Positions 44,946 through 51,634 are shown, counted from the first letter of the stretch. The stretch: DNA of 64,000 nt from Terriglobia bacterium (GCA_021323595.1 JAJPKR010000042.1:124001-188000); one strand, 5' to 3'. The notes: generated by a model from the letters alone, not told the origin. Numbers and translations: made by a program.

Positions 44946-46295
44946 TCAGGCCCGGAGGCTGGGCCGGCCAAAGCCCCAGCCGGCGGTCGAGTGCAGCAGA
45001 TCGTGGGTGGCGCCGCCGCGCAAGGCGTAGGTGATCGTCTTGGCGTCCTTATAGGCGAAGGCCAGAATGCTGTTCAGCGTCGAGAAGCAATGGCGCTCGC
45101 AGGTCTTCTTCATCTCCGTGAGCTGCGCGGTCTCGAATTTGTGCGCTTCGATCGCGCCCCAGTCGTAGCTGGCCGAATACATGGGGAAACAGGGAGCCAG
45201 CGTGCCATCCACGCGGATGATGAGCGAATTCTGGCCGGCACGGCAGCCCCAGGGATCCACATGCCCGCGCATGAAGGCGCGCATTTCCTCGAGCCGCTGC
45301 ACGGAATCGACCATGCGATAGCCCGCGCGCTTCTTTTCGATGATCCAGTCGATCAGCTTGTCCACCTCCGGCCAGTCCTCGGGCCGGATGTAGGTCTCGT
45401 TCTCGCGCGCGTGCTTGAACTGCGGCTGCTCGAGCATGGGCGATTCGTTGACGTGATAGTCGGTGGCGATGCCGTTGGCGTGCGCGATCTCGGTCAGCTC
45501 GCGGATGTCGTCGTGGTTGTTGCGGCAGATGTTCATGTTGAAAAAGATCGAGTAGCCGTACTTGTACTGCCGCTTGCAAAGATAGTTGAAGTGCTTGCGG
45601 ACCGGGTTGAGCGCCTTCGGCAAGCCGGGCTTCTCATCCACGGCATCCACGGCGAAGTTGACGGTGGCCACGCCGGCATCGGCCACGCGGTCAATGACGT
45701 CGGGCCGCAGCAGCCGCGCGTTGGTAGGCAAATAAACCCAAAAGCCGCGGTGGGCGGCGTAGTCGATCACCTTGTGCACGAACTGCGGTCGCAGCAGCGG
45801 CTCGCCGCCCATCAGCGCCAAGACGCGGCAGCCGGTGCCGTGCAGCCAATCGATCGAGCGGCGGGCGACATCTTCGGTCATGCCCTTGACCCGATTGTCG
45901 AACGCCCAGCAGTAATGGCAGTCGAGGTTGCACTTCCATTCGGTGAACAGATACGCAATGAGCGGGTGAAAATCCCCGGGCAGAATGCGCGAGCGCAGGT
46001 AGGGAAACAACCAGCCGCGAGCGGTGCGATAGACATGCTGGGCTTTCCACGTGCGCTTGCTCGGCGGCCGGTGCGGGACCGAGTCGTCGAGATCCGCGTC
46101 GCGATCCTCCAGCAACTCCGGATGGCGCGGAAACGGCGGCTCCGGCAGCATCTTCAGCTCGCGCGCCGGCGGGATCGCCGGCGCCGGCCGCGGGCCGAGA
46201 TGCGGCGCCGCCGGCTCGGGCTGCAGCAGGGATTGGAGCGGCACGTCCAGGCGAAAGGACGGTTGTGGATCGGGCGAATGGAATTGCGTTCCCAT
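44946..46295 (-). CDS. radical SAM protein with C-terminal auxiliary Cys (SPASM-like)
   Basis: 449 residues from ATG 46295 (GGGGAG upstream). C122-x3-C126-x2-C129 in WKCNLDCHYCWAFDN binds the SAM [4Fe-4S] cluster. A TIM-barrel follows, with ALMGGEPLLRPQFVHKVIDY (GGEP). The C-terminal Cys set, DPWGCRAGQNS, GTLAPCFPM and TCERHC, is typical of SPASM/twitch auxiliary clusters. The first 110 residues are an unusual proline-rich N-terminal part. It modifies a peptide, protein or small molecule by radical chemistry; the target is unknown. It lies 38 bases after the activase gene on the same strand, hence the putative link to the 2-hydroxyacyl-CoA-dehydratase-like system. Confidence 0.9.
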   Translation of the reverse strand: MGTQFHSPDPQPSFRLDVPLQSLLQPEPAAPHLGPRPAPAIPPARELKMLPEPPFPRHPELLEDRDADLDDSVPHRPPSKRTWKAQHVYRTARGWLFPYLRSRILPGDFHPLIAYLFTEWKCNLDCHYCWAFDNRVKGMTEDVARRSIDWLHGTGCRVLALMGGEPLLRPQFVHKVIDYAAHRGFWVYLPTNARLLRPDVIDRVADAGVATVNFAVDAVDEKPGLPKALNPVRKHFNYLCKRQYKYGYSIFFNMNICRNNHDDIRELTEIAHANGIATDYHVNESPMLEQPQFKHARENETYIRPEDWPEVDKLIDWIIEKKRAGYRMVDSVQRLEEMRAFMRGHVDPWGCRAGQNSLIIRVDGTLAPCFPMYSASYDWGAIEAHKFETAQLTEMKKTCERHCFSTLNSILAFAYKDAKTITYALRGGATHDLLHSTAGWGFGRPSLRA

Positions 46296-46333
46296 AAATC
46301 TCCCCTCGGCGAGGCGGCCAGGCACGCCCGCAG

Positions 46334-49792: not shown

Positions 49793-49834
49793 GCCTCCTC
49801 CGCCTGCCGATACTCTCAGGTTCGCCGCGGCCGC

Positions 49835-51634
49835 CTACGCGGCCGCGCCGTTGGTTGCGGGAACGCGCACGCGGGCGCGGCGCCGGAAACGCCCCTCGCG
49901 ATCCATGCGCTCGCTCACGTGCAGCACGAAATTGGCGGCCGTGCCGGCCACCCCCTCCCGGTGCGGCACGCGATAGAAGGGGCGCTTCAGTTCGGGATGT
50001 TCCTCGACATAGGCGCGAATTTCCTCCAGCGACTTGCCCGTGCGCAGCAGCGCTTGCTCGAATTCCGCCTTGGCCTTCACCTTGGCTTCCCCGAGCGCCA
50101 TCTGCACGCGGCTGTGGGCGTTGACCTCGCCCTCGCCCGAGGTCTCGATAGGCAGATAGATCATGTCCTTAAATTTGTTGACCACGCCCGACTGCGCCCC
50201 GTCCGATTGCGACGAGGGCATGCAGCCGAAGGGCTTCAGTCCCAGCACCATGTGGCAGAGATGGTGGACCGTGTAATACACGTTCTTGCCCACCTCGAGA
50301 TGCCCTTCCCCGCCCCGCGCCAGCTTGTTGTAGAACGGATCCGCCAGCCGCGCCAGCTCTTTTTGCGGCACCAGAGGATGGGTAATGCCGCCCAGCCGCT
50401 TGGTGATGCGATGGTAGAAGTGGCTCCAGACCGCCTCCCCCAGCGCCAGCGCCAGCCATTTCTGGCGGAACTGCAACTCGTTCCGCGCGCGCTTGTGCAG
50501 CTCGTACCAGTGCGGATACCGGTACGGCGCATCCACCGCCTTGCGCGCCACGGCGTTGTTGCGCACCTGATGGATCATGTACGCCACCCAGGTCGCGATC
50601 GGCTCCACGATCACCTGGGCGCCTTCCCGCTCGAGGAAGCGGAACATGTTGAAGTTGCCGTCGCCCTCGGTGATTTGCGCCCAGAATTCGCCGGTGATCT
50701 TGACCACCGGCTTGACCTTCAGCCGGTCCACTTCGATGGTATTCAGCAACTCGTGCGTGCGGCGCAGGCCGGCGTAGAACTCCTTGCCGTACAGGTGATC
50801 GATGATCTTGCAGAGCACGCTCAGCGTGTCTTTGACCGCGCGGTTCTTTTGCAGCAGGCCCGACGCCACGTCGTTGGTGTGCTCGAGCAGCTCGAACGGC
50901 TTGCGCTCGCGCAGCAGCGTCCCCAAGCCGTCGACCGCCTCCTGGAAGACCCGATCGGTCTCGCCGCGATGCACCTCGAACGGCCGGATCTGGTAAACCA
51001 AATCGTTGACCACGTCGCCCAGCAAGAGCGCGTTGAGCATGCTCATGCCGAAGTTGACCGTGAACTTCAGCCCCGGCTCGCCGGAGGCCGCCTTGATGCC
51101 GTCGTTCTGCTGGAACAGCAGCACGCGGAAGCCCTCATAGCCGGCGTTCTGCAGCGCGAAACGGTATTCGGCCTCGTACATGCCGAAACGGCAGGGACCA
51201 CACGAGCCGGCGGTGAAAAACACATGGCGGTCGATGATCTCTTGCTTGCTCATCCCCTGCGCTTCCAGGCCGCGCAGGTACTGGATCAAATTCCCGACCG
51301 TGAAGTAGGTGGGGTTGCACTGGCCGGTGTTGCCGTACTCCTTGCCCAATTGGAAGGCGGCGACGTTGGGGGTCGGGATCACGACGCACTTGTAGCCGTT
51401 GCCTTGAAATGCCGCCTGAATCAAGGCTTCGTGCTTCCAGGTCAGACCTCCGAAGAGAATCGTGACTCGGTCCCGCTCCTCGCCCACGAACGGGCGCTCG
51501 ACCGGACGATGAAAATGTTCGGGCTGTTGCAGGCCGGCGGCGCGCGCTAGGCGCTGCCGCTCGATCGCCAATCGCTTCTTGATCTCATCGTTAAGGTCGC
51601 TGACGGGAACCAAATCGGGGGCTTCAACGGGCAT
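49835..51634 (-). CDS. 2-hydroxyacyl-CoA dehydratase-like / double-cubane-type iron-sulfur protein
   Basis: 599 residues from ATG 51634 (AAGGAGC upstream). Key cysteines are C106 in TGQCNPTYFTVG, C145 and C148 in TAGSCGPCRFGMYEAEYRFA, and C471 in KPFGCMPSSQSDGA. The latter part resembles HgdB/BadD/FldB-type subunits and the DUF2229-related double-cubane cluster proteins that accept electrons from activases. Its own substrate is unknown: the fold could be a dehydratase, a benzoyl-CoA-reductase-type enzyme or a small-molecule reductase. It heads an operon with the activase (43 bases apart) and the radical SAM gene. A promoter at 51778-51808 and a leader that can mask its ribosome site precede it. 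Confidence 0.85.
   Translation of the reverse strand: MPVEAPDLVPVSDLNDEIKKRLAIERQRLARAAGLQQPEHFHRPVERPFVGEERDRVTILFGGLTWKHEALIQAAFQGNGYKCVVIPTPNVAAFQLGKEYGNTGQCNPTYFTVGNLIQYLRGLEAQGMSKQEIIDRHVFFTAGSCGPCRFGMYEAEYRFALQNAGYEGFRVLLFQQNDGIKAASGEPGLKFTVNFGMSMLNALLLGDVVNDLVYQIRPFEVHRGETDRVFQEAVDGLGTLLRERKPFELLEHTNDVASGLLQKNRAVKDTLSVLCKIIDHLYGKEFYAGLRRTHELLNTIEVDRLKVKPVVKITGEFWAQITEGDGNFNMFRFLEREGAQVIVEPIATWVAYMIHQVRNNAVARKAVDAPYRYPHWYELHKRARNELQFRQKWLALALGEAVWSHFYHRITKRLGGITHPLVPQKELARLADPFYNKLARGGEGHLEVGKNVYYTVHHLCHMVLGLKPFGCMPSSQSDGAQSGVVNKFKDMIYLPIETSGEGEVNAHSRVQMALGEAKVKAKAEFEQALLRTGKSLEEIRAYVEEHPELKRPFYRVPHREGVAGTAANFVLHVSERMDREGRFRRRARVRVPATNGAAA

Follow-up and report, generated by a model that had tools for sequence, protein, structure and literature searches.

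Organization of the three-gene unit

The locus analysed here lies in the genome of an acidobacterium (Terriglobia bacterium, GCA_021323595.1; 3.5 Mb in 65 contigs), within a stretch of 64,000 nucleotides (JAJPKR010000042.1:124001-188000) that is referred to as the window and from whose first letter positions are counted. This genome falls in one order with a family, presumably the Acidobacteriaceae, for which many complete genomes of 4-6 Mb exist. Three adjacent genes, named HGD, ACT and RSAM and lying in that order on the minus strand with intergenic gaps of 42 and 38 bases, had been singled out in a sequence-only reading as the best candidate for an undescribed system, of unknown substrate, that combines an HgdB/double-cubane-like protein, a 1152-residue protein with two activase units and a DUF2229 domain, and a SPASM-like radical S-adenosylmethionine (SAM) protein. 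The three open reading frames were recovered with the same coordinates and gaps, and each follows a plausible ribosome-binding site: AAAGGAG precedes the ATG of HGD at 51634, GGAGGAGG that of ACT at 49792 and GAGGGGAG that of RSAM at 46295. The genes and their conserved sites are as follows.

49835-51634, minus strand: HGD, 599 aa; probable HgdB/BcrB/DCCP-fold reductase module and PlsR counterpart (open reading frame, ribosome-binding site, fold matches)
50222-51319, minus strand: span of the conserved HGD cysteines Cys106, Cys148 and Cys471, presumed [4Fe-4S] ligands
46334-49792, minus strand: ACT, 1152 aa; PlsA counterpart (two PF01869 and one PF09989 domains; collinear with PlsA-type proteins)
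49067-49774, minus strand: ACT activase unit 1 (PF01869), residues 7-242, with Cys135 and Cys174, both invariant
47948-48742, minus strand: ACT activase unit 2 (PF01869), residues 351-615, with Cys477 and Cys516, both invariant
47714-47848, minus strand: cysteine-rich linker of ACT, CxxCx3C...C (Cys649, Cys652, Cys656, Cys693), invariant in ACT, PlsA-type and second-family proteins
46811-47500, minus strand: DUF2229 of ACT (PF09989), residues 765-994, with Cys818 and Cys865; Cys1060 lies outside, beyond the domain; cysteines invariant
44946-46295, minus strand: RSAM, 449 aa; radical SAM protein with a SPASM/Twitch-like C-terminus (PF04055, predicted fold)
45087-45932, minus strand: RSAM cysteines Cys122, Cys126 and Cys129 (AdoMet cluster) and Cys351, Cys369, Cys399 and Cys403 (auxiliary cluster), invariant in 45 sequences

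HGD and ACT resemble a split PlsA/PlsR

The domain content ascribed to ACT in the sequence-only reading was confirmed by Pfam, which recognised two BcrAD_BadFG units and one DUF2229. HGD gave no sequence match in Pfam, NCBIfam or the PDB. A structure model of it, built from 32 homologues, had a pLDDT of 84. Its top five PDB matches were the double-cubane cluster protein (DCCP) and the benzoyl-CoA reductase BzdNO, at probabilities of 0.99-1.0, but the E-values were weak (5e-3 to 1.4e-2) and the TM-scores over the whole chain were low. As these two proteins account for all five best matches, an HgdB-type fold is likely for HGD, though not strongly scored, in keeping with its earlier description as double-cubane-like.

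Residues 5-1134 of ACT aligned with the first ~1000 residues of single-chain PlsA-type proteins (28-30% identity, E-values down to 1e-148), and HGD aligned with the remaining C-terminal part of the same proteins (21-23% identity, E-values down to 1e-23). The single-chain proteins compared were from Listeria, Collinsella and Haliovirga and are annotated as '2-hydroxyacyl-CoA dehydratase' or 'acyl-CoA dehydratase activase'; a split form (975 and 404 aa) is also found in Fusobacterium animalis. Domain order is identical between HGD-ACT and the PlsA-type proteins, and 14 ligand-type cysteines are common to both, the eleven of ACT being kept in every compared ACT, PlsA-type and second-family sequence and the three of HGD being cysteine in 98-100% of HGD sequences and in all four compared PlsR parts. 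From their placement, Cys135/174 and Cys477/516 of ACT would fit a cluster bridging an activase pseudo-dimer, Cys649/652/656/693 would form a CxxCx3C...C site and Cys818/865/1060 a three-cysteine DUF2229 site, and Cys106, Cys148 and Cys471 of HGD are presumed to be ligands of one [4Fe-4S] cluster. By these comparisons, HGD and ACT are together a split homologue of the PlsA/PlsR plasmalogen synthase and the glycerol ester reductase Ger, and probably act as an ATP-driven lipid-ester reductase making ether lipids.

In Clostridium perfringens, plsA-plsR alone is enough for plasmalogen formation when placed in E. coli (PMC12838417), and orthologues have been reported in Listeria (PMC9702350), where, as in Enterococcus, the protein is a single chain. 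HGD-ACT shares with this system two activase units, DUF2229 and an HgdB-like module in the same order, the occurrence in split or fused form and the same set of cysteines; it differs in the 28-30% identity and separate clade of ACT, in its linked RSAM gene, in the length of HGD (599 aa vs 404 aa in Fusobacterium) and in the position of HGD upstream rather than downstream of ACT. Ger is represented by Thermotoga maritima Tmari_0479, described as a modified plsA (PMC8788747), and by a protein of Desulfatibacillum alkenivorans. Like ACT, it is PlsA-like with two PF01869 activation domains; validated members carry both domains, a trait accompanying alkyl-ether products (PMC13274423). Compared by description, Ger is one protein whereas HGD-ACT is two and has a radical SAM partner. 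DCCP/DCCP-R and the 2-hydroxyacyl-CoA dehydratases likewise pair an ATP-driven activase with an HgdB-fold acceptor, but their activases are single and non-fused, they have no DUF2229, and HGD gave no match at the sequence level.

A role in amino-acid fermentation or aromatic degradation was rejected: among the scanned genes flanking the unit there is no CoA-ligase, CoA-transferase or fermentation gene, and benzoyl-CoA reductase equivalog models of NCBIfam scored far below cut-off. The sequence-only reading had reported the same absence and had judged ordinary amino-acid fermentation unlikely, a judgement which is thus supported. Two additional BcrAD-like matches occur elsewhere in the same genome. 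Separately, a second and distant pair of a double activase and an HgdB protein (~1020-1040 and ~436 aa; 26% identity to ACT) was observed in several Acidobacteria that also have ACT (L171-L176; for example, L174:4719-7838 and 7781-9091).

RSAM belongs to an undescribed SPASM/Twitch-type family

RSAM has a CX3CX2C AdoMet-cluster core together with four invariant C-terminal cysteines, and its structure model (pLDDT 82.5) resembles SkfB, SuiB, BlsE, anSME and PqqE, with Tes matched only partly. Core motif, auxiliary-cluster cysteines and fold thus all agree with a SPASM/Twitch protein, and 'SPASM-like' was an apt description. No curated NCBIfam equivalog reaches its cut-off for RSAM, and the library of literature searched contained no description of plsA or ger in linkage with a radical SAM gene; relative to that literature, the RSAM partner is undescribed and its association with HGD-ACT is new.

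Several identities for RSAM were considered. It shares with Tes a radical SAM core and a lipid context, but it matches 7tol over only ~130 core residues, a separate true Tes is encoded in the same genome, and the Tes model NF045702 (cut-off 450 bits) was not among the best 25 families listed for it, nor among the best 15 listed for its counterpart in Edaphobacter aggregans; its assignment as Tes was therefore rejected. Iso-diabolic acid is abundant in the 17 cultures of subdivisions 1 and 3 that have been examined (PMC13274423), although RSAM is absent from most relatives searched, so that RSAM is unlikely to be the iso-diabolic acid synthase. A role as a small-peptide maturase was set aside on finding no conserved small open reading frame beside RSAM among those of at least 90 aa.

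Where RSAM is not linked to HGD-ACT, no common neighbour was found, only clade-specific ones. One such cluster (L108, L113, L114 and L119) contains a fusion of acyl-AMP ligase, acyl carrier protein (ACP) and PlsC-type acyltransferase (840-847 aa) along with an FAD amine-oxidase-like protein and an alpha/beta hydrolase. At L098, L099 and L199, a second small radical SAM gene (~320 aa) adjoins RSAM, at distances of 56 and 85 bases in the rows listed, and an apparent relative of it, judged by eye, is present elsewhere in the genome of the window (L142).

Conservation, linkage and co-occurrence

A scan of named genomes with the RSAM alignment returned 226 relatives, of which the best 80 were analysed as loci. 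Nearly all of these 80 are titled Acidobacteria (Terriglobia, Acidobacteriaceae, Bryobacteraceae and others) and include Edaphobacter aggregans DSM 19364, E. lichenicola, Granulicella sp. dw_53 and Pyrinomonas methylaliphatogenes K22; the other titles are three 'bacterium' bins and one Arcobacter record. RSAM is an Acidobacteriota-wide family. The Arcobacter record (L121, isolate SulCav_AS07-7), which carries RSAM-HGD-ACT, is probably mislabelled; its genome (G085) falls within the acidobacterial taxonomic order around genome G066.

All three reading frames recur in dozens of genomes with 44-84% identity, and the unit is real and conserved far beyond chance. It is found in three gene orders (HGD-ACT-RSAM, HGD-RSAM-ACT and RSAM-HGD-ACT), and HGD and/or ACT lie on the same stretch in 38 of the 80 named RSAM loci, several of the remainder being short contigs. 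On a tree of 78 RSAM sequences, the linked or unlinked state changes seven times, at least six of these changes being forced by supported branches. Where no ACT adjoins RSAM on the stretch, ACT is encoded elsewhere (at least 48% identity) in 20 of 25 RSAM genomes, and each of the 18 stretches fetched around unlinked ACT genes or the second double-activase family has HGD next to ACT. Genome G049 carries broken copies of all three genes in place, an indication that they were lost as a unit.

Co-occurrence was assessed at two scales, with p-values that are uncorrected for phylogeny. Within the order around G066 (150 genomes), ACT was found in 26 of 27 RSAM genomes against 10.1 expected (p=1.5e-12); ACT itself occurs in 56 of the 150, and RSAM is absent from 30 of those 56. 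In the phylum sample, RSAM and ACT occurred together in 9 genomes vs 2.0 expected (p=2.4e-5), and 14 of 23 ACT genomes lacked RSAM. The Pyrinomonas genome, which has RSAM, gave no ACT match at E <= 0.001. The coupling of a radical SAM protein to an activase system that the sequence-only reading had put forward is thus upheld by the three gene orders and the 26 of 27 genomes, and functional coupling of the three families is supported; RSAM is nevertheless not an obligate partner of ACT.

Association with Tes and tetraether lipids

A Tes homologue is encoded in the same genome and scored 592 bits against NF045702 (E-value of 1.3e-134 to 7tol).

G000:C50:105192-106667 (L124:1114-2856): Tes homologue in the genome of the window, above the curated NF045702 cut-off

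Tes of this grade was found in 23 of 150 genomes of the G066 order, with ACT in 20 of these 23 (p=1.5e-7); phylum-wide, 28 of 247 genomes had it, 10 of them with ACT vs 2.6 expected (p=3e-5). The complete RSAM-HGD-ACT unit is also present in E. aggregans (L096). Of 17 cultures from subdivisions 1 and 3, that of E. aggregans was one of two that contained branched glycerol dialkyl glycerol tetraethers (brGDGTs), and in this species the synthesis of brGDGT Ia is tied to 1% O2. The association of Tes with ACT and the presence of the unit in E. aggregans are correlations and not proof of a product.

For Candidatus Solibacter usitatus, Halamka et al. proposed brGDGT synthesis by PlsAR homologues followed by Tes (PMC10087280). 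The genome of the window is similar in holding PlsAR-type homologues and Tes together in one acidobacterial genome, and the Solibacter PlsAR probably belongs to the same gene family as HGD-ACT; unlike the unit here, the proposal, in the portion of that paper available, mentions no linked radical SAM gene besides Tes/Grs homologues. The reductase pair is of a known kind, with an earlier proposal in Acidobacteria.

A longer Tes-like radical SAM protein (~700 aa; L230:839-2926) was also observed, scoring ~320 bits to NF045702, below cut-off. Matches of this grade account for most of the 133 of 247 Acidobacteriota genomes with a match, and every listed relative of family f2 matches at this grade or better; because of this spread, the longer protein is a candidate for the iso-diabolic acid condensing enzyme. 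The E. aggregans Tes homologue reported at 32% identity may be of this longer kind.

Proposed function and alternative explanations

It is proposed that HGD and ACT form a split enzyme of the PlsA/PlsR-Ger type, in which ATP hydrolysis by the two fused activase units would push single electrons of low potential out of a bridging [4Fe-4S] cluster. By way of the CxxCx3C linker site, these electrons would reach the DUF2229 and HGD reductase modules, each with three cysteines, where the carboxylic ester group of a membrane glycerolipid would be reduced to an ether, alkenyl or alkyl. RSAM would act in the same ether-lipid pathway, most likely by radical tailoring of the lipid before or after ester reduction, and in the organism of the window the ethers may be condensed to tetraethers of the brGDGT type by the Tes homologue. 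Taken as a whole, the reading of HGD-ACT as such an ester reductase with RSAM in the same pathway is considered moderately likely. The view of the unit as undescribed and of unknown substrate therefore lapses for the activase/HgdB pair, whose architecture and cysteines are those of PlsA/PlsR and Ger and for which there is the earlier proposal of PlsAR homologues in an acidobacterium (PMC10087280); it stands for RSAM, and the 'unknown system' narrows to the RSAM step.

A number of observations weigh against this proposal. The PlsA-type proteins in the comparison were annotated homologues, with no experimentally validated PlsA or Ger sequence among them, and ACT forms a separate, strongly supported clade beside five of them, with long branches; it is for this reason named a PlsA/Ger-type homologue and not PlsA itself. 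On the midpoint-rooted tree it lies nearer to the PlsA-type proteins than the second acidobacterial double-activase family does. The link between RSAM and lipids is circumstantial, and the co-occurrence statistics carry no phylogenetic correction. As PlsAR forms plasmalogens without a radical SAM protein, RSAM is not essential for ester reduction generally. The check put forward in the sequence-only reading, whether the radical SAM clade is restricted to activase neighbourhoods, had a mixed outcome: the RSAM family extends beyond the operon, and at the threshold applied ACT was absent from 13 of the 22 RSAM genomes of the phylum sample.

HGD-ACT might instead reduce or dehydrate another substrate (a CoA-thioester, an aromatic acid or a small molecule) as a member of the benzoyl-CoA reductase/2-hydroxyacyl-CoA dehydratase/DCCP superfamily, with RSAM serving that pathway. 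This would accommodate the diversity of the superfamily, the best fold matches of HGD, the low identity and separate clade of ACT and the existence in the same phylum of a second double-activase family. The split layout of two activases, DUF2229 and HgdB module and all 14 cysteines match PlsA/PlsR, however, the scanned flanking genes include none for CoA metabolism, and the association with Tes and the presence in E. aggregans also count against it, so that this explanation is rather unlikely. That the adjacency is incidental and RSAM has an unrelated function would agree with its being unlinked in about half of the loci, where it has no single conserved partner, and with its occurrence in lineages without ACT; this is very improbable in view of the three gene orders, the six or more forced linkage changes, the presence of ACT elsewhere in 20 of 25 genomes and in 26 of 27 in one taxonomic order, and the joint decay in G049.

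It was also considered that RSAM might be a maturase of the reductase, modifying HGD or ACT post-translationally or with a special cluster before lipid esters are reduced. SPASM-type folds are common in radical SAM enzymes that modify peptides and proteins, RSAM adjoins HGD-ACT in all three gene orders, and in one taxonomic order it almost never occurs without ACT. Against this, ACT does not need RSAM, which is absent from 30 of 56 ACT genomes in the G066 order and from 14 of 23 phylum-wide, and PlsAR functions in E. coli without it. As RSAM also occurs in Pyrinomonas and other lineages that gave no ACT match, it cannot serve simply to mature ACT, and this role is unlikely. Tailoring of the lipid by RSAM is the likelier function, though unproven, because Pyrinomonas, which has RSAM and no ACT match, is an ether-lipid producer (PMC4644332), and because RSAM lies near an acyl-AMP ligase-ACP-acyltransferase gene in a clade without ACT in its two tested genomes. 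More specifically, RSAM could represent a new class of radical SAM enzymes that tailor lipids alongside a PlsAR-type reductase, or alongside some other system that forms ethers, and could fill a gap in the synthesis of brGDGTs or related ether lipids in Acidobacteria, a suggestion that is offered tentatively.

Regulatory elements and other genes of the window

Loci of the Edaphobacter/Granulicella type have, upstream of RSAM, a divergent gene for a GAF-domain sigma-54 activator (L026, L028, L090, L091, L095 and L112). Common to the six intergenic regions are TGGC...TGC, in which the spacing is the GG-N10-GC typical of -24/-12 promoters, and TGCCAA/TTGGCA repeats. Activator and elements may make the unit responsive to growth conditions; this regulation is regarded only as a lead, as no -24/-12-type element was found upstream of HGD in the window and no GAF/sigma-54 activator on the E. 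aggregans stretch fetched. A sigma-70-type promoter was not found in the window either.

Elsewhere in the window, two further genes were recorded.

11528-12559, plus strand: UbiA-type prenyltransferase; the nearest models are chlorophyll synthase and geranylgeranylglycerol-phosphate transferase, all below cut-off
55128-58163, plus strand: copper-type P-ATPase with an N-terminal cupredoxin-like domain and an HMA domain

Implications for ether-lipid biosynthesis in Acidobacteria

Branched GDGTs are the basis of widely used temperature and pH proxies, the so-called climate thermometers. Their biosynthesis and their producers are still unsettled, and the Acidobacteria are the phylum of known brGDGT producers. 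The three-gene unit, carried by soil Acidobacteria, is a testable candidate for part of this unsolved pathway; among its carriers is E. aggregans, in which brGDGT production depends on oxygen. If the proposed function is right, the unit names genes behind ether-lipid formation, and an ATP-driven, oxygen-sensitive Fe-S reductase would fit the low-oxygen requirement. The unit would then also provide a more specific genomic marker of ether-lipid capacity than a generic PlsA search.

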